IMG/VR virus record: IMGVR_UViG_3300009091_000057
Coordinates: 1 to 25,104 of that record
Direction: 5' to 3' (one strand)
DNA: 25,104 nt
Source of the DNA: a virus
Part shown: positions 8,281 to 21,149 of the stretch, in pieces
Numbering within the stretch: the stretch's first letter is position 1
Layout of the letters: each line of letters starts with the position of its first letter
Notes under the pieces: model-generated
Seen by the model: only the letters and a program-made list of their open reading frames with translations
The model's database searches: none
Told to the model about the DNA's origin: nothing
Position numbers and translations under genes: made by a program

Positions 8281-8633
8281 TGCCCACCACCAAGGACGAA
8301 CTCAAGCGCTACAAGGCGTACCTGCTCCAGCAAGCCATCACCGTGAAAGACGAGACGCAAGGCTTGCAGGAAGCCTCTTCACGCGAGATCAACCTGGGCG
8401 TGGAACTCGCGGTGGAGATCGAGAACATCATCAACAACGACGTCGAAGCGCACGGCCCACTGCTGAACGCCACGGTCGCCTCGCTGCTGGGCTCTGCCGC
8501 CGTGGGCATGATGGTCAACCGCATGGATCTGCCGGAAGAATATCTCCGCCAGATGTTCACCGCGATCATCCGCAAGAACTTTGAACTGCGGAGCTTTCCA
8601 ACAGCTCTGCCTTCCAACGGAGTGACGCACTAA
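8280..8633 (+). CDS. Hypothetical helical protein (117 aa)
   Basis: Starts in a TAATG overlap. All-helical prediction: a basic N-terminal helix, an acidic helix (LGVELAVEIENIINN), a small-residue helix (LLNATVASLLGSAAVGMMV) and an amphipathic final helix (EEYLRQMFTAIIRKNF). The small-residue helix could touch a membrane but is not long or hydrophobic enough to be certain. Its helix order and spacing (EH..., then a 20-residue aliphatic helix, then LRQM) weakly resembles the proteins at 7155 and 11634. It lies directly before the AAA+ gene and couples to it by TAATG, so it may be a partner of that ATPase. Confidence 0.75.
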   Translation: MPTTKDELKRYKAYLLQQAITVKDETQGLQEASSREINLGVELAVEIENIINNDVEAHGPLLNATVASLLGSAAVGMMVNRMDLPEEYLRQMFTAIIRKNFELRSFPTALPSNGVTH

Positions 8634-9373
8634 TGGCGAAGTCCACACCCATTTCCTCGCTCACAGCATGGCAGATCCACGATCACATGCTCTCCGCGCA
8701 CGTCCCACGGATGCTGACCTACGGCCCTCCCGGAATCGGAAAGTCCTACGGCCCAGCGAAATGGGCCGCGAAGAACCGCTGGGAGTTCATGAGCGTCACG
8801 CTGACAGACCAGACGCCAGCCTCAGAGCTGCGAGGGCACTTCATCCTCAAGGGCTCCGACTTCGTCTGGCACGATGGCGTCGTCACGAGAGCGTGGCGGA
8901 AAACCCAGGAAGGCCTCAACGTCCTGATCGAGATCAACGAGATTGTGGAAGCGGGCGCCGACGTCGAAGTCTTCCTCCACAATGCCCTCGACGATCCCGA
9001 GTTCGCCAGACTGGATCTTCCAACCGGCGAAACCATTCGTCCGGCTCCGGAACGTCTCATCGTCGTCGCCACGATGAATGGCAATCCGGGCATGATCCGC
9101 GAAGCCCTCCGTGATCGCTTCCCGGTGAAGATCCAGCTCAACGAACCGCATCCCGATGCAATCATGGCGTTGCCATCGGACTTGCGCCCACTCGCCATGG
9201 AAATGACCAAGGCATCGAAGGGAAAAGATCGCATGAGCGTTCGCCCCTTCGTGGCCTATGCGCAGCTTCGGAGCCGTGTCGCCGCGAACATCGCAGCTGA
9301 GGCGGTCTTCGGGGAGAACGCACTCGACATTCTCACAGCATTGGGGCTTTCAACGATCAAAGCCCCGAAGTAA
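8633..9373 (+). CDS. MoxR-type AAA+ ATPase
   Basis: A 246-residue AAA+ ATPase of the MoxR/dynein-related (AAA_5) kind. Seen motifs: Walker A GPPGIGKS at 31-38, Walker B-type VLIEINE at 97-103 (Glu where Asp is more usual), sensor 1 ATMNGNP at 146-152, and an arginine-finger candidate in REALRDRF at 156-163. MoxR enzymes act as hexameric chaperone-like remodelers, usually with a VWA-domain partner encoded next door, as here (gene at 9386, 12-base gap). The lid domain is short. Similar phage proteins are often annotated as CobS-like; nothing here ties it to cobalamin. Target unknown. Confidence 0.9.
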   Translation: MAKSTPISSLTAWQIHDHMLSAHVPRMLTYGPPGIGKSYGPAKWAAKNRWEFMSVTLTDQTPASELRGHFILKGSDFVWHDGVVTRAWRKTQEGLNVLIEINEIVEAGADVEVFLHNALDDPEFARLDLPTGETIRPAPERLIVVATMNGNPGMIREALRDRFPVKIQLNEPHPDAIMALPSDLRPLAMEMTKASKGKDRMSVRPFVAYAQLRSRVAANIAAEAVFGENALDILTALGLSTIKAPK

Positions 9374-9385
9374 AGGAGCTGGCTC

Positions 9386-10882
9386 TTGCGAAGAACATTC
9401 CCGGAAGTCTTGCCTGACGATCGGGGTGGCGAGGAGTGGCAAGTCTCTCAGACGTTTCTGGGCGACCTCCACGCCACCACCGATCTCAAGCGGAAGACGA
9501 TGACCATCCCGGGCGGCGACGATGCGCAATCACTGGCCGTCCGTGCACGGGAGATGATTGCCGCAGCAATCGGCTCCGGATGGGATCATTACAAGGTCTC
9601 GCAGAAATATGATCTCAAAGTGGCCTCGGTGGCGCTGGCTGAGCGCATCCGCGTGAACTGGTCGATTAGGAACGCGGATAGCTTGATCGGCTCCGTTCCC
9701 CCCATGGCGCAGGAAGCGCTGACCCAATACGAACACAGCACGATCACCCAGAACGAACTGGACGTCGCTGTCGCGCAATGGCAGAAGGCCTACAGAAAGG
9801 AGCCGAAAGACACGCTCAAGCGGTGGGCGATGGCAGCCATGGACGCCGCCTTCACGGCGGATCAGTGCGCCATCATAGAGCTTGGACGCCGCATGATAGG
9901 CGATGTCCCCGAAGACGATGAATCGTCGATGGTCGATCAGATCTTCGAGCAGCTCTGCGAACGGATAAATAAGATCTGCATCGACGGGGCGTCACGCCAG
10001 CGCTCCGGCATTCCCAAGCTCTCCACAATCGTCGAACTGGCAAAAGCCCTTGAGAAAACCGTGGATAATGCCATCGACGACAGCATGATGAGCGGTGCAC
10101 GCGACGGTCCACCTGCTGATCCGGACGATCGCATGCGCATGAGCAAAAAAGATCGTGCGGCGTTGGACATGCTCGATCCAGACGGAAACAAGATGAAAAA
10201 ACGGAACGAGCAGTTCGAAGGGCGATGGCCCGTCAGCGCGAAGCATCGCTGGGGTGAACTCACCATCGTCGAGGCGAGTCTCGTCGATGACTTCCGCATC
10301 CGTAGGCTCTTGAGGAAAGCCTACGCCACGGACGCAGGCGTGCAGATCGGCGCCCTGCACCGCCTCTATACGGATCAGAAGATCTTCCGCGATGTGAAGC
10401 TCGTCAACGTCGGAACCGTGCTCATCGACACCTCCGGATCGATGAGCCTGAGCCAAGAGGACATCTATAACATGGTCCTCGAATGCCCAGCGATCACAGT
10501 CGCCACGTACTCCGGCGAGGAAGCCGAAGGCGTCCTGAAGATCGTCGTCAGCGGAGGGAAGATCGCGCATGATTCCAATGACTTCTATCCGCCAGGTGGC
10601 GGTGGAAACATCGTCGATGGCCCAGCGCTGGAGTGGCTGGGCACTCAGCAAGCACCGCGAATTTGGATCTCTGACGGCTGCGTGACAGGCATCAACGACA
10701 CCATGGCTCCGAACCTCACCATGGAGTGCATCGCCCTGCTCGCCCAGCATCAAATCTGGCGAGTGCCAACGCTCACGCACGGAGGGCAGCTGGTGAAGCT
10801 GCTCAACGACCCACGGAAAAAGCGATTGCTCATGGAAAGCCAATGGGGCTTGTTCATACCCCAGGAGGGCGCACACCGATGA
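9386..10882 (+). CDS. VWA-domain protein, partner of the MoxR-type ATPase
   Basis: A 498-residue protein starting at TTG 9386, chosen because AAAGGAG lies 7 bases upstream. The N-terminal two thirds are helical and charged. The C-terminal third is a von Willebrand factor A domain: MIDAS motif DTSGSM at residues 348-353, and ISDG near 430. The usual third MIDAS position (Thr after a Gly pair) reads GGGGN here, so metal coordination may be altered. Known MoxR/VWA pairs (RavA-ViaA, CbbQ-CbbO) use the VWA protein as adaptor that brings a target to the ATPase. The stop overlaps the next start as ATGA. No CobT-type chemistry is implied. Confidence 0.88.
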   Translation: MRRTFPEVLPDDRGGEEWQVSQTFLGDLHATTDLKRKTMTIPGGDDAQSLAVRAREMIAAAIGSGWDHYKVSQKYDLKVASVALAERIRVNWSIRNADSLIGSVPPMAQEALTQYEHSTITQNELDVAVAQWQKAYRKEPKDTLKRWAMAAMDAAFTADQCAIIELGRRMIGDVPEDDESSMVDQIFEQLCERINKICIDGASRQRSGIPKLSTIVELAKALEKTVDNAIDDSMMSGARDGPPADPDDRMRMSKKDRAALDMLDPDGNKMKKRNEQFEGRWPVSAKHRWGELTIVEASLVDDFRIRRLLRKAYATDAGVQIGALHRLYTDQKIFRDVKLVNVGTVLIDTSGSMSLSQEDIYNMVLECPAITVATYSGEEAEGVLKIVVSGGKIAHDSNDFYPPGGGGNIVDGPALEWLGTQQAPRIWISDGCVTGINDTMAPNLTMECIALLAQHQIWRVPTLTHGGQLVKLLNDPRKKRLLMESQWGLFIPQEGAHR

Positions 10883-13880: not shown

Positions 13881-14354
13881 CTAACGCCGGAAGATCACCA
13901 ACATCGAAGGGAACGGTGCAGGGTTCCCGGCGATCCCCTTCATCCTGAAGCGGATCCGTCCTTTCAGAAAGCGAATCTCCGTTCGCTGATCCGCGCGGTA
14001 GCAGAACTCATGAAACCATCGGGTATCCGTTCGGGCAGGGAGGAGCAACATGACAAGGTCCGCGGATTCCCAGATGTAAACGCTGTACCATGCTTGCTTC
14101 ACGAACGATCCGACTAGCCTCCCATAGGGAGGATTGCAGAACACCCTCCCCCGCCACTTCTGTGTCAAGGCATCGTCGTAATACTCCGCACAGAGAGCGT
14201 TCTCGGCATTCGCCGCGGCATCCGTCGTAAATCCGAACTCCTTCTGCCATTCCGCAAAGATCTCCGGGGGCGTTTCCCAATCGCCCCGACTGGAGGAGAA
14301 AAGCACGTCTTTCCATTTGGCATTATCATTGCCAATCTCGATGGGTATGGACAC
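13881..14354 (-). CDS. dam: Phage DNA N6-adenine methyltransferase (Dam type)
   Basis: A 157-residue enzyme of the phage N-6-adenine-methyltransferase family, transferring methyl from SAM to adenine in DNA. Seen features: WETP (26-29), the conserved FTTDAAANAENA stretch (about 42-53), catalytic NPPYG (74-78) and a C-terminal FPSMLVIF strand. The GTG at 14354 is chosen as start because GAGGTGA, a strong ribosome site, lies 5 bases before it; an ATG at 14378 has none. Even so, the 5' end overlaps the divergent nuclease gene. It is co-transcribed with the RepA-like ATPase. Target site is not readable, GATC being the common one for the family. Confidence 0.88.
   Translation of the reverse strand: MSIPIEIGNDNAKWKDVLFSSSRGDWETPPEIFAEWQKEFGFTTDAAANAENALCAEYYDDALTQKWRGRVFCNPPYGRLVGSFVKQAWYSVYIWESADLVMLLLPARTDTRWFHEFCYRADQRTEIRFLKGRIRFRMKGIAGNPAPFPSMLVIFRR
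14317..14335. promoter_or_regulatory. Palindrome TTGGCA-N7-TGCCAA at a divergent start
   Basis: TTGGCA (14317-14322) and TGCCAA (14330-14335) form an exact dyad at the point where the minus-strand methyltransferase and plus-strand nuclease diverge. It lies inside the first codons of the methyltransferase and just before the nuclease ATG, so a dimeric regulator there could act on both. Role is inferred. Confidence 0.45.
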
Positions 14355-15471
14355 GATTCTCACCTCACGATCGCGCATCGTCGCCTACGCCAACTGCCAA
14401 CGACTCGGGTATCTCACGTATGACTGGGATGGAACGGGGCTGGAGCCGGTGACGCTGGCGCTCCCCCTCGCCAACGGCATCGCCGTTCATGAGATTCTGG
14501 CAGCCATCCTCACGGGAACCCCTCCAGAAGCAGCAATAAGCAAGGTGCTTGCCGAGTATGCGGCGCAGGTCAAGGCCTTGGGCGTGGCGAATGAAGACCC
14601 GGAAGGCCTGGAGTGGCTCATCCGCGAACAACGCACCCTCCTGGAAGGGACGATCCGGGCATGGCTGCGGATTCGGCTCCCCCAATTGCAAGCCCAGTTT
14701 GACTTTCTGGCCGTCGAGAAGGAACTCCGGTGGCCCCTCGACCCGGAAGCCACGATTATTGATCAGGTACGGTGCGATGTGCTAGCCCGGAGGAAAACCG
14801 ACGGCGGACTCTTCTACGTGGAATGGAAGACCACGACCACCGGGGGCGACGAATGGATCAAGCAATGGGAGCATAACACGCAGATCTTGGCGAACGTCTT
14901 GGCCGTGGAAGAAATGCTCCACGAACGCTGCGAGGGGGTGATGATTGAAGGGATCCTCAAAGGGCGCCGGAAAATTGACGAAGCCGCCCGGAGTCCCTTT
15001 AATGGGAAGAAAATCCAGTTCTCCCCCCTCTGCTATGGCTACAAGCATGTGGTGGCGGGGGAGTATAGCCCTCGGTATCAGGCGGCAAAGGGCTGGTACA
15101 AGATAGCGACCTTTGAGGAAATGCCCATCAAAGAATGGGTGGAACAGGTCATGACTGTGGAAGACTGCTCGGCCCTGTTCGCTCCCGTCCCGCCCATCCG
15201 GCCGAACCGCAGGCACTTGGAACGTTGGCGCCGACAGACGATTGTGGTAGAAAAGGACAGGGCCTTTGCCCTAGACCAAGTCGCACGGGGGGCGGATCCC
15301 GACCTGCTCTTCCCCATGAACGACGAGCATTGCTTCCGGTATTGGGGGCATCCGTGCCCCTTTGAGCCGCTGTGCTTCCGGGAGGAGATTGAACAGGACC
15401 CCCTTGGCTCTGGGCTCTACCAGCGCCGGGAAGATCATCATAAAATCGTGGAACTCACGGAGGACGTATGA
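14341..15471 (+). CDS. PD-(D/E)XK nuclease, Cas4/RecB-like with Fe-S cysteines
   Basis: A 376-residue nuclease of the PD-(D/E)XK superfamily. Active-site residues visible are H50 (GIAVHEIL), D136 (RCDVLAR), E151 and K153 (EWK), and Q171 in the following helix. Four cysteines, C19 near the N-terminus and C331, C339, C345 near the C-terminus, match the split Fe-S cluster of Cas4, AddB and related exonucleases. It probably resects DNA ends for recombination, in line with the Sak4-like ATPase downstream. The start is uncertain: ATG 14341 and 14347 and TTG 14317 are all possible, and none has a clear ribosome site. No cas genes or arrays are nearby. Confidence 0.87.
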   Translation: MGMDTILTSRSRIVAYANCQRLGYLTYDWDGTGLEPVTLALPLANGIAVHEILAAILTGTPPEAAISKVLAEYAAQVKALGVANEDPEGLEWLIREQRTLLEGTIRAWLRIRLPQLQAQFDFLAVEKELRWPLDPEATIIDQVRCDVLARRKTDGGLFYVEWKTTTTGGDEWIKQWEHNTQILANVLAVEEMLHERCEGVMIEGILKGRRKIDEAARSPFNGKKIQFSPLCYGYKHVVAGEYSPRYQAAKGWYKIATFEEMPIKEWVEQVMTVEDCSALFAPVPPIRPNRRHLERWRRQTIVVEKDRAFALDQVARGADPDLLFPMNDEHCFRYWGHPCPFEPLCFREEIEQDPLGSGLYQRREDHHKIVELTEDV

Positions 15472-15497: not shown

Positions 15498-16096
15498 AGG
15501 CGAGGGAAATCCGCGCACTCGGCAATTGGGGTTCCCAGGGAGGACTGCTTTCTGAAGCAGAGCTGGCCTTCCTGATGGAAATCACGGGGCTCATTGCAAG
15601 GGAACGTGGGGAGGGCTTCCGGATGCTGGAGGTCGGGCATTACTACGGGCTCTCCACGATGGGAATTGTGAGAACCCTACAGCAGTCGCTCCTCGTGCAC
15701 TGGAAGCTGATCACCCTCGACGCCCATTGCGCAGACCCATGGGTGCCCGCAACCGACCCCAACGTGTTCTTCAAGAACCAATGGGATCGCTTCCCGGATC
15801 CCCGCGTGGAGGTGCAGATCCAGCGTTCGGAACTGCTCACCGGGCTGCCTCCGTTGGACGCCGTGTTCTATGACGGGGATCACGGCAACGAACAGTTCCG
15901 CTTTACGCAGATGGTCCACGCGACTCCTGGGATCAAGACGTTCCTCTTTGATGATCGGGATTTCCCGGTTCCTGTGAAATGCGTGGAGTTCCTGCGCGAC
16001 CATGGCTGGGATGACTTCTCTCCTCAGCTGGTGAGAGGTCCGCAAGACAAGGCACATCCGCTCACGATGAGCATTGGATGGTTCCGCCGTGGATGA
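15494..16096 (+). CDS. Class I SAM-dependent methyltransferase (Methyltransf_24-like)
   Basis: A 200-residue protein with a Rossmann-type methyltransferase fold. Motif I is LEVG...GLST (45-55), with acidic LDAH at 75-78 and DGDH at 127-130, typical of the Methyltransf_24/CmcI-TylF type group. These act on small molecules, sugars or peptides, not on DNA bases, so its substrate here may be a sugar or surface structure. The frame is open from 15362 inside the nuclease gene; GTG 15494 is chosen because it follows the nuclease stop and overlaps the mini-ORF stop. TTG 15485 is an alternative. Overlaps the HNH gene by 23 bases. Confidence 0.8.
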   Translation: MKAREIRALGNWGSQGGLLSEAELAFLMEITGLIARERGEGFRMLEVGHYYGLSTMGIVRTLQQSLLVHWKLITLDAHCADPWVPATDPNVFFKNQWDRFPDPRVEVQIQRSELLTGLPPLDAVFYDGDHGNEQFRFTQMVHATPGIKTFLFDDRDFPVPVKCVEFLRDHGWDDFSPQLVRGPQDKAHPLTMSIGWFRRG

Positions 16097-16472
16097 GGAA
16101 GAGCCTGAAATAGAGGTCGTGGTGTATGAGATCACGCCTAAGGTCATTACACGGGTCCTCGGTAAGACGGTAATCCCCGATGATGAGGAGCACGAATGTT
16201 GGGAATGGCAAGGCTCCCGCACGTACGATGGCTACGGCCACGTCTCCGTGGGAGGGAAGCTGTTCCTCGCACACCGGGTGCTCTACGTGGTCTACAAGGG
16301 AGAGATTCCTTCCGGGCTCGTATTGCTCCACTCGTGTGACAACAGAAAATGCGTAAGCCCGCATCATTTGCGGGTTGGGACGCAGGCAGAGAACTTGCAA
16401 GACATGCATAACAAGGGGCGGTGGAGGAGGAAACCACATGCACAGTCCAAGGGAACTGCGAGAGATGCTTGA
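16074..16472 (+). CDS. HNH endonuclease (HNH_3 type)
   Basis: A 132-residue HNH nuclease. It shows the CWEWQG start of the domain (42-47), the AHRVLY helix (66-71), the core LLHSCDNRKCVSPHHL (about 84-99, with H86, C88, C93 and H97/H98 as ligands or catalytic residues) and a final GTQAEN turn. HNH_3 enzymes are commonly free-standing homing nucleases in phages; some act in packaging or degradation of rival DNA. It is inserted between the methyltransferase and HTH genes with overlaps on both sides (23 and 35 bases), unusual for a recent homing insertion. The start at 16074 lacks a strong ribosome site; GTG 16089 is possible. Confidence 0.88.
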   Translation: MDGSAVDEEEPEIEVVVYEITPKVITRVLGKTVIPDDEEHECWEWQGSRTYDGYGHVSVGGKLFLAHRVLYVVYKGEIPSGLVLLHSCDNRKCVSPHHLRVGTQAENLQDMHNKGRWRRKPHAQSKGTARDA

Positions 16473-16742: not shown

Positions 16743-17693
16743 ATGCCCAACACCAACACAACCAAGAGACGCGAGTACGTGAGGGATCTCGTCTACGGGA
16801 TCTCCTCAAGCGGAAAAACCAGCTGGTGGATCAGAGTGGCGATTCACCTCCACGAGACCACGGGAAAGAAAACCCGGTGGTATCTGGGCGACGGCGGCGG
16901 CACGACCATCGACGTGAGCCAGGTAGACGACTTCGTCGAGGTAATGCATTATAACCTCTGGGATCACCCGTTAGAGGTCACCCAGAAAATCGCTGAGGGC
17001 TGGTGGCCGCAAGACGTGGAAGAGCCGAATTCAAAGCTGCTTCCGCCCACCGCTGATGAACTGGCGCATTACGGCCTCTTCGTCTATGAAGGGATGTCCG
17101 TGATGGCGGATTACATCATGGGCGATCGGGAGGGAGGGCTGGCGAACCGGATGGCGAGAGGAGAAATGCTCAACAACGATGCGTCGTTCCGTCTCACGGA
17201 TGGGGCGTTGAAGTTCGGCGGGAACGCCCGCACCCATTACGCCTTCACGCAACGACGGATCCTCGACTGCATCGAACGCACGCGTGCTCTGCCTGTGCAC
17301 GTGGGGTGGACCGCCCACGAGCGCAAGGTTGACGATGAGGATACAAGGGAGGTGTGGATTGGTCCAGATGTCGCGGGTAAGGTCCTGACGACGAAGATCG
17401 GAGCGTCGTTTGGGAACACGATTCATCTGCTGCCGGTTCGACATACCGTGAAGCAGACCGATCCGGTCACGAAGAAGCCGGTAGACCAGGTGGTGATGCA
17501 GCGGAGGGCCTACACGAGGAGCCACTACGATCCGAGCGGCTCTCATTTCGTGCAGTACTTCGCCAATACCCGCCTGCCGGTGGGGGTTGGGGCAGGATCA
17601 TTCCCTGAGTATCTGGTGGATCCTGACCCCGTTGACTACTACAAGCGACTCAGAGAATCAGCGAAGAAGGACAAGACCCATGGTAACACTTAG
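16743..17693 (+). CDS. Sak4-like RecA-fold ATPase (AAA_24 type)
   Basis: A 316-residue ATPase with Walker A GISSSGKTS at residues 19-27, an early GGGTTID segment and a Walker B-like LFVYEG (Glu in place of the usual Asp). Phage Sak4-type proteins are small RecA/Rad51 paralogues that pair single strands with help from an SSB; the next gene may be that SSB. The pairing with a Cas4-like nuclease upstream fits a recombination set. Closest alternative is a general AAA_24 packaging/NTP-binding protein. The start at 16743 follows a 65-base gap that holds only tiny frames. It overlaps the next gene by 14 bases. Confidence 0.75.
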   Translation: MPNTNTTKRREYVRDLVYGISSSGKTSWWIRVAIHLHETTGKKTRWYLGDGGGTTIDVSQVDDFVEVMHYNLWDHPLEVTQKIAEGWWPQDVEEPNSKLLPPTADELAHYGLFVYEGMSVMADYIMGDREGGLANRMARGEMLNNDASFRLTDGALKFGGNARTHYAFTQRRILDCIERTRALPVHVGWTAHERKVDDEDTREVWIGPDVAGKVLTTKIGASFGNTIHLLPVRHTVKQTDPVTKKPVDQVVMQRRAYTRSHYDPSGSHFVQYFANTRLPVGVGAGSFPEYLVDPDPVDYYKRLRESAKKDKTHGNT

Positions 17694-18411: not shown

Positions 18412-18476
18412 TCCTGGCCTTGAAGTGGGGAAAATGATGTGCTCTAATTGGATGCCGGTGGAGGAGCGTGGAATTC

Positions 18477-21149
18477 ATGGGAAAACCGGACAGCCCCTGT
18501 CGGGAGTGTCCTCTTCGGACGATCGGAGCCGGGTGGGTCAGAGGGGACGGCCCTCAGCCTGCGGAGATCCTCCTCGTCGGGGAGGCACCTGGTGAGACCG
18601 AAGCCCGGCTGGGCAAGCCCTTCGTGGGCTCTGCTGGGAAGATGCTGGATCGCCTGCTTGGCCGGGCTGGGATTGACCGCGCTCGTTTCCGGGTGGCCAA
18701 CGTCCTCTGCTGCCGCCCCCCGAGGAACTATCTGGCCGGTGCACCTTACGAGCATGCCGCCATCGGCACCTGCGCCCCCCTCCTCGACGAAGAAATCCGT
18801 CTTACGCGTCCCAAGGTCATTGTTGCGTTAGGAAATATCCCCCTTCGCAGGTTGGCGAAGGTTTCCGGGATTGGCCGCTACCGCGGATACCCCATTCTCC
18901 ACGAATCGGGCGCGTGGATCGTCCCGACGTATCATCCTTCCCATCTGCTTCCTAGGAAGGGGCAAGTTGAAACGGCGAAGCTGACCGGGATGGTGATCCT
19001 GGATTTGAAGCGCGCGGTAGACATCGCGGAACACGGATATGAACGGGAAACCACGGCTCGCTATCGGCTAGACCCTTCTCCGTCGGAAGCCGCGATCTTC
19101 GCGGTGGAGTATGAAAACGCGGTAGACCAGAAGCGCACGTCTTATCTGAGCGTGGATATTGAAACCCCGGGGAAGCTGAAAGCCTCGGAAGATGAGGATC
19201 TGGATGAGGAAATCGGCTCCACCCAGATCCTCCGCATGTCCTTCTGCTTTACCCCCGGCTACGCGATGAGCGTGCAGTGGAGCCCGGAATACCTGCCCGT
19301 GATCCGGAGGATTCTGTCGTATCCCGGGGCGGCTCATGTCGTCTGGAATGGCTATGCCTTCGATGTGCCCATCCTAGAGGCCAACGGGATGCGAATAAAA
19401 AATCCCGTGTTCGATGGAATGTGGGGGTGGCACCTTCTCCAGAGCGATCTCCCTCGTGGGTTGGAGGCAGTGACGAGCGTCTACGCGGCGGAACTTGGTG
19501 CGTGGAAACATCTCGGCTCTTCAGAGCCCGCCCGCTACAACGCCATGGACGCGGACGCCGCCCTCCGTTGCATGCTGGGGATCGAGCGGGATCTCAAAGA
19601 ACGGGGCCAGTGGGATCTCTTCCAAGACCATATCGTGAACCTCCATCCCATCCTGTTCAGAGCGGGGCGACGCAACGGCGTGCGGATCGACCGTGAACGA
19701 CAGGATGCCCTCCGGGCAGAGCTGCTCCAACGCAGAGACCAGCTCTTGATCCAGGCTCAGGGCATGGTCGGCCCCCTGAACAAAGCAGAGAAGCTATACA
19801 TTCGCCCCCCAAAGGGGAAGACCCCCCTCGTGGAAGTGGCGGCAACTCGCACGGTCAGCGTGTGCGATGTCTGTGGCGCCCGGAACGCGAACACCGTCCA
19901 CTTCCAGAGGAAATGCCCCACAGGGATGAAGAAGCTCGTGGAAGAGCCCTGCACGAAGTTCAAGTGGGAACCGGAGTGGAGCACGCTCTCAGGAGAGACC
20001 CTCCTGGAGGCAGTAGGAGAGGCTGGCTTTAACCCCGTGTCCTCCCCACAGCTCATCCGGTATGCCAAGGATCAGGGGCATCCCATCGGGGAGAACTACA
20101 AGACCGGCTCTGAGCAGCTCGATAAGAAAGTCAAGGCTGCGCTGATCAAGCGGTTCGGCGCCACCCACCCGATCTACGCCCTGTCCCAAGAGCTGTCAGA
20201 GCTGACGAAGACCCTGGGCACCTACGTGGATGGGTATACCCCCGACTCCCATGGGCTGATCTATACGACCTATTCCTTCGCCCCTTCGACGGGCAGGCTC
20301 TCTTCGAGGAACGTCAATCTGCAGAACGTCTCCCGGGGCTCGAACAATCGCCATGCGCGGGCGATCCGGGAAACCATTGTCCCCCGCCCCGGGCACGTCT
20401 TCGTGGAGGCCGATTCCTCCGCCATCGAAGCCGTGATGAGCGGGTTCTTCATGGATGACGCGGAATACATCCGGCTGGCCCGCACCGGGATCCACGATTA
20501 CGTGACGTGCGTGGAGATGGGGTTGGAATTTGATCCGGCCGCACTCAAGGGATACCGGAAAGACCCCCGCTACGCGGAGAACCGGGAGCGGAACAAGCGG
20601 GTGGTGCATGGGACGAACTACGGGATGTCCCCGAAGATGATGGTGATGCAATATCCGGAGGTGTTCCGGACGGAACGGGACGCGTCCTACGCACAGGCCA
20701 CGTATTTCAAGGCGTGCCCACGGCTCGCCCCTTGGCAACATGAAATCCGCACCCTCGCGCACAAGCAGACGTTCTTGAAGAACCCCTGGGGGTATCGGCA
20801 TTACTTCTATCAGGTCTTTGAGAAGAACGACAAAGGCGAGATCGTACCGGGCCCGGATGCCAAGCGGTGCGTGGCGTTCCTGCCGCAGTCCAGCGCCGCC
20901 GCGTTCATGCGCGATAGCCTCGTGCTGCTGGGCAGCTCCGAATGGATGCCCTATGCCCCGGCGATCGTCTCCATCCACGATTCCATTGCCTTAGACGTTC
21001 CGATCGACCTCGCGGATCACGCCATCGAATGGCTGATTCAAACGCTGACTCGCCCAATTCCGCTCCTCAATGGCCTCCGCATCGGCTGCGAAGTCAAACA
21101 AGGGCGTTCCTGGGCGGAGATGGAGGTGGTGGCACGTGAAAACGTCTGA
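18477..21149 (+). CDS. Fusion: family 4 uracil-DNA glycosylase + family A DNA polymerase with 3'-5' exonuclease
   Basis: 890 residues, three domains. Residues 1-180 are a family 4 uracil-DNA glycosylase: C8, C11, C78/C79 and C99 for the Fe-S cluster, GEAPGE at 35-40, HPSHLL at 153-158. Next is a DnaQ-like 3'-5' exonuclease with D227/E229, N291/D296 and Y354/D358, apparently intact. The polymerase follows: TGRLSS (605-610), motif A D646 and E651, O-helix R703, K707, H711, Y715, motif C H834-D835-S836. A Cys4 insertion (C463, C466, C480, C492) lies before motif A. ATG 18477 is chosen over GTG 18468 for ribosome-site spacing. SPO1-type phage polymerases set the precedent for such a fusion. Main replicase, probably. 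Confidence 0.93.
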   Translation: MGKPDSPCRECPLRTIGAGWVRGDGPQPAEILLVGEAPGETEARLGKPFVGSAGKMLDRLLGRAGIDRARFRVANVLCCRPPRNYLAGAPYEHAAIGTCAPLLDEEIRLTRPKVIVALGNIPLRRLAKVSGIGRYRGYPILHESGAWIVPTYHPSHLLPRKGQVETAKLTGMVILDLKRAVDIAEHGYERETTARYRLDPSPSEAAIFAVEYENAVDQKRTSYLSVDIETPGKLKASEDEDLDEEIGSTQILRMSFCFTPGYAMSVQWSPEYLPVIRRILSYPGAAHVVWNGYAFDVPILEANGMRIKNPVFDGMWGWHLLQSDLPRGLEAVTSVYAAELGAWKHLGSSEPARYNAMDADAALRCMLGIERDLKERGQWDLFQDHIVNLHPILFRAGRRNGVRIDRERQDALRAELLQRRDQLLIQAQGMVGPLNKAEKLYIRPPKGKTPLVEVAATRTVSVCDVCGARNANTVHFQRKCPTGMKKLVEEPCTKFKWEPEWSTLSGETLLEAVGEAGFNPVSSPQLIRYAKDQGHPIGENYKTGSEQLDKKVKAALIKRFGATHPIYALSQELSELTKTLGTYVDGYTPDSHGLIYTTYSFAPSTGRLSSRNVNLQNVSRGSNNRHARAIRETIVPRPGHVFVEADSSAIEAVMSGFFMDDAEYIRLARTGIHDYVTCVEMGLEFDPAALKGYRKDPRYAENRERNKRVVHGTNYGMSPKMMVMQYPEVFRTERDASYAQATYFKACPRLAPWQHEIRTLAHKQTFLKNPWGYRHYFYQVFEKNDKGEIVPGPDAKRCVAFLPQSSAAAFMRDSLVLLGSSEWMPYAPAIVSIHDSIALDVPIDLADHAIEWLIQTLTRPIPLLNGLRIGCEVKQGRSWAEMEVVARENV

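Follow-up and report, generated by a model that had tools for sequence, protein, structure and literature searches.

An apparently intact family-4-type uracil-DNA glycosylase fused to a phage family A DNA polymerase

A single open reading frame in the virus record IMGVR_UViG_3300009091_000057 joins a uracil-DNA glycosylase (UDG) to a 3'-5' exonuclease and a family A DNA polymerase. Judged from motifs and predicted folds, we consider this protein to be probably (roughly 0.6) a replicative family A polymerase with a catalytically competent family-4-type UDG that would excise uracil at the phage fork. The whole stretch analyzed, 25,104 bases, is referred to here as the window; the record, listed with the IMG/VR end classes, is probably a fragment of a genome. 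The fusion is common in phages, and the one in the window is, its thumb insert aside, of a known and ordinary kind. What remains of interest is the usefulness of an intact domain for testing, the insert in the polymerase thumb, and an apparent decay series among the fused UDGs.

Reading frame, domains, and genomic surroundings

The frame runs uninterrupted on the + strand from 18468 to 21149 and encodes 893 amino acids counted from a GTG at 18468, or 890 from an ATG at 18477. The ATG, which the first-pass annotation had taken as the start, is probably the correct one because its spacing to a GGAGGA at 18460 to 18465, judged by eye, is better than that of the GTG. Residue numbers throughout are counted from the GTG. 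The features of the fusion are as follows.

18468/18477-21149, + strand: UDG, 3'-5' exonuclease, and family A DNA polymerase fusion (Pfam, PHROG, AlphaFold2)
18498-19034, + strand: family-4-type UDG domain, residues about 11 to 189 (motifs, profiles, fold)
18579-18602, + strand: UDG motif A, GEAPGETE, residues 38 to 45 (alignment)
18933-18950, + strand: UDG motif B, HPSHLL, residues 156 to 161 (alignment)
19146-19590, + strand: 3'-5' exonuclease, residues about 227 to 374 (motifs, Klenow alignment)
19764-20024, + strand: insert at the polymerase thumb tip, residues about 433 to 519 (AlphaFold2, alignments)
20004-21119, + strand: family A polymerase, residues 513 to 884 (Pfam, motifs, Klenow alignment)

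Pfam matches exceeded the gathering score at both ends of the protein (UDG, residues 26 to 165, E = 4.9e-27; DNA_pol_A, PF00476, residues 513 to 884, E = 4.5e-28, 98.7 bits). The profile phrog_17, "DNA polymerase," spans residues 31 to 888, so the UDG region is already within that profile. The AlphaFold2 model of the whole protein had a mean pLDDT of 85.2, with residues 439 to 507 and 510 to 513 below 50. A chance open reading frame was excluded by the E values and by homologues co-linear across nearly the full length. Misassembly at the junction was likewise excluded, since homologues are co-linear through both domains and the GC content is similar on either side (0.63 in the UDG part versus 0.61 in the exonuclease-polymerase part).

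Family 4 was defined here by motif A, GE(A/G)PG (PMC10359453), and motif B, HPS(S/A)(L/V)(L/V)R. In the window UDG, Cys11, Cys14, Cys82, and Cys102 align with the Fe-S-type cysteines of the Thermotoga maritima and Thermus thermophilus UDGs, as putative ligands of an Fe-S cluster. Retained as well are the uracil contacts N78 and H156 and, in motif A, Glu39. They are the equivalents of N91, H178, and E52 of UdgX, in which N91 and H178 contact uracil, E52 acts in catalysis, and R184 binds substrate (PMC10359453). The motif-B arginine equivalent to R184 is displaced by one residue (LLPR in the window versus the usual LLR). TIGR00758, the family 4 model, was the top-scoring UDG model (E = 1.1e-35), at 122.9 bits against a cut-off of 125.3.

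Because ordinary family A polymerases took up the PDB fold matches listed for the whole protein, the UDG domain was folded and searched separately. Its AlphaFold2 model (pLDDT, 93.1) matched the T. maritima family 4 UDG 1vk2 with Z = 25.9 and an rmsd of 1.9 over 177 residues at 36% identity, followed by 1ui0 (Z = 25.3) and 4zby (Z = 24.0). UdgX structures scored like those of family 4 (Z = 24 to 26), and TDG/Mug structures scored at most 15.0. We considered and rejected an identity as UdgX: by the published definition (PMC10359453), the window has GEAPG rather than GEQPG and a loop, CCRPPRNYLAG, without KRRIH, and it scored 105.8 bits with the UdgX model TIGR03914 against a cut-off of 189.95. 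Overall, the alignments and models suggest that the UDG is apparently complete for catalysis.

The exonuclease motifs are DIET (230), NGYAFD (294), and YNAMD (357), which contain D230/E232, N294/D299, and Y357/D361; the Pfam search of the fusion protein returned no match to an exonuclease model. The polymerase has motif A, DSSAIE (649), with D649/E654; motif B, with R706/K710/H714/Y718; and motif C, with H837/D838. Residues 193 to 886 of the AlphaFold2 model superpose on the Klenow fragment (Z = 35.2; rmsd, 4.0; 559 residues). Polymerase motifs A, B, and C and the exonuclease carboxylates of a proofreading family A polymerase are thus all present in the window. The first-pass annotation had described a UDG joined to a family A polymerase with all domains apparently intact. 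Both statements held, the former in a single frame with the catalytic motifs present and the latter from the UDG, exonuclease, and polymerase motifs and their predicted folds.

The thumb insert is the unusual feature of an otherwise ordinary UDG-polymerase. It comprises 86 residues between a thumb helix that ends at about residue 433 and FNPVSSPQL at about 519, has cysteines spaced C466-x2-C469-x13-C483-x11-C495, and lies mostly below a pLDDT of 50. Most of the 44 fused relatives compared have 6 to 7 residues at this site, none of them has the four-cysteine insert, and no homologues of it were detectable in INPHARED or IMG/VR. In an alignment with T7 gp5, it falls at the site of that polymerase's own insert, which binds thioredoxin. 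Metal binding and a role in processivity are guesses. That active uracil excision and a metal-folded thumb insert, serving as a processivity or partner-binding element, together make up a distinct replisome design seems doubtful to us.

Upstream of the polymerase gene are a nuclease and a Sak4-like gene, as is also seen in other fusion phages, and a portal gene lies at the left end of the record.

3-1370, - strand: P22-like portal, truncated by the left end of the record (PF16510, E = 6.9e-20; phrog_156, E = 2e-35)
14317-15471, + strand: PD-(D/E)XK nuclease (PF12705, E = 3.1e-9)
16743-17693, + strand: Sak4-like ssDNA-annealing protein/ATPase of a replication-recombination module (phrog_124, E = 4.1e-8)

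The record also carries a terminase (PHROG) and a Dam-type methylase (Pfam). The P22-like portal reported by the first-pass annotation was confirmed by PF16510. Its remark that no thymidine-modifying genes were visible was also correct within the 25-kb record, itself probably a fragment, in which we found no thymidylate synthase/hydroxymethylase (PF00303), ThyX, or trimeric dUTPase (PF00692). Elsewhere in the window, an HNH (homing-type) endonuclease frame lies just upstream of the Sak4 and polymerase genes (16074 to 16472, + strand; PF13392, E = 2.1e-11). A MoxR-like AAA ATPase (AAA_5, E = 1.2e-14) is followed by a 498-amino-acid protein matching phrog_33218, of unassigned function (together 8633 to 10882, + strand). 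The latter contains a DTSGSMS stretch that resembles a VWA metal site, and the two are a possible chaperone-like pair in a phage early region.

Distribution, variation, and phylogeny of the fused glycosylases

In INPHARED, 91 records matched the UDG part of the protein and 852 matched the whole protein, the majority of the latter by way of its polymerase part. A scan of IMG/VR with the single protein recovered only one relative and an alignment was required for more; the alignment-based scan found at least 561 encoding loci. UDG and polymerase lay in one open reading frame at 16 of 18 INPHARED loci and, among the matches listed, at 73 of the 81 IMG/VR loci examined. All 45 aligned members matched both the UDG_fam4 and pola models. 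Annotated hosts of fusion phages include Thermus, Bacillus, Lysinibacillus, Weizmannia, Serratia, Yersinia, Pseudomonas, Brevundimonas, Microcystis, and Vibrio, and further annotated sources are a Methanomicrobiales-linked virus and spring water. A UDG profile search of genome contigs recovered only free-standing bacterial and archaeal UDGs. As to whether many unrelated phages carry the same fusion with a known function, a point raised by the first-pass annotation, the fusion is indeed present in many and no experimentally established function was found.

Across 50 fusion records examined, PF00303 was present in 8 and absent from 42, PF00692 was over the cut-off in 5 and not in 45, and a P22-like portal was over the cut-off in 7. 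The combination of a UDG-polymerase and a P22-like portal in the absence of thymidylate synthase therefore recurs. With PF00303 in only 8 of these 50 records, a tie between the fusion and phages containing hydroxymethyluracil (HMU) was not borne out.

The fused UDGs vary widely in their motifs. The full set is retained by the window, the Thermus phage phiLo, and vir526, whereas the Fe-S cysteines are missing in about half of the fused homologues in our alignment (ctMlz233, Mel-JY34, and L002 among them) and several lack uracil-binding residues. Thus, the domain can persist without canonical catalysis. Among 91 aligned UDG rows, the fused UDG of SPO1 has QENPFDYE at motif A, Ser at the position of N78, and no Fe-S cysteines; that of LysYB1 has ADNPTDFE and Gly; those of Serbin, P744, and PMBT14 have GD(A/N)PN and Pro; and those of BSP7 and Youna2 have GDSPI and Tyr. 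SPO1, LysYB1, P744, Serbin, and PMBT14 (L005, L006, L009, L011, and L012) thus carry a fused UDG without the uracil-contacting Asn. In BSP7 (L016, Bacillus), Youna2 (L018, Weizmannia), and StAshley (L013, Brevundimonas), the fusions adjoin genes of 7-deazaguanine type (QueD/QueE/FolE-like, or 7-cyano-7-deazaguanine synthase).

Genes of the PF00303 type occur in the fusion phages SPO1, LysYB1, P744, Serbin, PMBT14, and ctfzr933; 5 of the 6 lack N78. We considered whether HMU phages have degenerate UDGs, using a panel of 18 phages not selected by motif: N78 was lost in 5 of 7 PF00303-positive phages versus 3 of 11 others (Fisher P = 0.14, with the phages phylogenetically non-independent), a trend that is suggestive and not significant.

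The UDG tree comprised 66 rows (41 fused and 25 free-standing), with long-branch rows left out. One branch parted the fused from the free-standing UDGs (support, 94/93; 92% of bootstrap trees), and the window fell inside a 30-row fused set without SPO1 (96/92), on an end branch of about 1 change per column. The fused or free-standing label changed once in this tree and four times in a quick, weakly supported tree of 132 rows. A single origin of the fused UDGs is favored by these sequence comparisons. In the polymerase tree, the fused rows did not form one clade, and the window, on a long branch, grouped with the polymerase of EPV3 and fused polymerases from environmental phages (96/90). The first-pass annotation had called for a phylogeny of both domains against SPO1-type and free-standing UDGs; the fused UDGs did separate from the free-standing ones, but the window did not group with SPO1. 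Nor does SPO1 serve as the precedent proposed there: its UDG has none of the Fe-S cysteines, is missing the uracil-binding Asn and the glycines of motif A, and stands apart in the tree. SPO1 is an altered branch of a large, mostly undescribed phage polymerase group.

The polymerases of GiKK and JacoRen57 are sister to the fused ctfzr933/Serbin group in the polymerase tree (100/99). Their N termini gave no Pfam UDG match but matched the C-terminal half of the UDG profile by hhalign (probability, 97.2; E = 4e-11) and by hmmsearch.

L189, 1232-1680 (Gordonia phage GiKK): putative UDG half-domain remnant (hhalign, hmmsearch)
L190, 1367-1780 (Mycobacterium phage JacoRen57): putative UDG half-domain remnant (hhalign, hmmsearch)

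These remnants and the sister position are consistent with loss of the UDG from a fused ancestor. A T5-like polymerase (L188) gave a weak hint only of such a remnant. From sequence comparison, the fused UDGs appear to form a graded series from intact (window, phiLo, vir526) through Fe-S-less and motif-altered (SPO1, Serbin, BSP7) to half-domain remnant. A wider and, in our view, unlikely reading is that a fused UDG was the ancestral state for a large share of phage family A polymerases, with many of the "plain" ones being decayed descendants.

Proposed function and alternative readings

In the reading we prefer, the polymerase, which has a proofreading exonuclease and no 5' nuclease, would replicate the phage DNA. 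The UDG would flip out and excise uracil, either dUMP incorporated opposite A or deaminated cytosine, in or beside the duplex being made by the polymerase. An AP endonuclease, presumably the host's, would open the site, and the polymerase of the fusion itself would fill it. Through the tether, base-excision repair would take place right at the fork, and the phage DNA would be kept free of uracil. We infer the excision of uracil, the action at the fork, and the host-supplied next step. The absence of PF00303 from 42, and of PF00692 above the cut-off from 45, of the 50 fusion records is in keeping with a target that is uracil and not a modified thymine. Even highly diverged fused UDGs keep the Glu and Pro of motif A, but this is not independent support because the IMG/VR sample was drawn with that motif (pattern GE[AF]PG[EA][TQE]E); the sample is biased to an intact motif A and uninformative on the frequency of altered motifs. 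It is important to note that, if the UDG attacked the single-stranded template before the polymerase reached it, the abasic sites left behind would block copying; its action must therefore be directed or restricted in some way.

That difficulty bears on a reading in which the pocket binds uracil in the template, making the polymerase stop or slow down, and excises little or none of it. Archaeal family B polymerases have a read-ahead uracil brake of this kind. A tethered sensor would spare the template from abasic sites, the domain is still kept in some fused UDGs without catalytic residues, and the phiLo fusion structure 9qhs describes itself in its title as "with modified template." The window, however, has the full excision-type set, including the motif-A Glu and four cysteines, beyond what binding would be expected to need, and we regard a pure sensor as unlikely here. 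The graded series from intact through Fe-S-less and motif-altered to half-domain remnant could instead mean that the UDG is an inherited architectural domain, mainly DNA binding or structural, on the path of decay seen in other phages. The window sits at the intact end of that gradient, with its cysteines, motif A, N78, and H156 kept despite deep divergence, which makes such a role distinctly improbable for this protein. We give very little credence to the idea that a modified thymine in the DNA of the phage itself is what the domain recognizes or edits. Thymidylate-synthase/hydroxymethylase-type genes are indeed found in several fusion phages, but PF00303, ThyX, and PF00692 are all absent from the window (probably a genome fragment), most of the fusion records examined lack PF00303, and the uracil pocket in the PF00303 phages is mostly altered, unlike that of the window, a difference that is suggestive only.

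Uracil excision at the fork is thus the reading that we carry forward. Since many fused UDGs look catalytically complete, the question of why a glycosylase sits on a polymerase can be tested with the window and phiLo proteins. The spread of domain states, from intact through altered to remnant, also gives a natural series in which to ask under what conditions a phage requires uracil to be removed at the fork.

Comparison with known systems

In the open-access literature, we found one paper describing such a fusion (PMC7412058) and no biochemical test of any fused UDG. That paper, from 2020, reports UDG, exonuclease, and polymerase domains in the DNA polymerase I of all 11 members of the PaBG group; its authors saw no close phage relatives of that UDG beyond the group and proposed a role in accurate replication (PMC7412058). 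PaBG/"Lupandier" is a jumbo myovirus, and its likeness to the window rests on the published domain description (PMC7412058).

SPO1 gp31 and the polymerase of Lysinibacillus phage LysYB1 likewise have a UDG fold N-terminal to a family A polymerase but differ in their altered motif A, in having a dUMP hydroxymethylase or thymidylate synthase close by, and in lying apart from the window in the UDG tree. The environmental UDG-polymerases (ctMlz233, MW202489; Microcystis phage Mel-JY34; vir526; IMG/VR loci L021 to L100) share the window's domain order over nearly the full length at about 23 to 29% identity, and several occur with a P22-like portal, although about half are without the Fe-S cysteines. 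Among them, the Manatee Spring phage ctMlz233 (MW202489) is a complete circular genome of similar design, in which the replication module faces a packaging block of portal and terminase.

The free-standing family 4 UDGs (TM0511, T. thermophilus UDGa, and that of S. tokodaii) share with the window the fold, the Fe-S cysteines, GE(A/G)PG, and HPS/HPA; they differ in being unfused and in lying across the one tree branch (94/93). Like the window protein, phiLo_158 of Thermus phage phiLo has an N-terminal UDG with four cysteines followed by a family A polymerase. Its UDG motifs are GEAPGNDE and HPSFVLR, and it is 31% identical to the window over 163 aligned UDG residues. It differs in length (1,175 amino acids versus 893), in its distant polymerase, and in belonging to a 178-kb phage of a thermophile. 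PDB entry 9qhs, "phiLo family-A DNA polymerase with modified template," matches phiLo_158 end to end over residues 34 to 1175.
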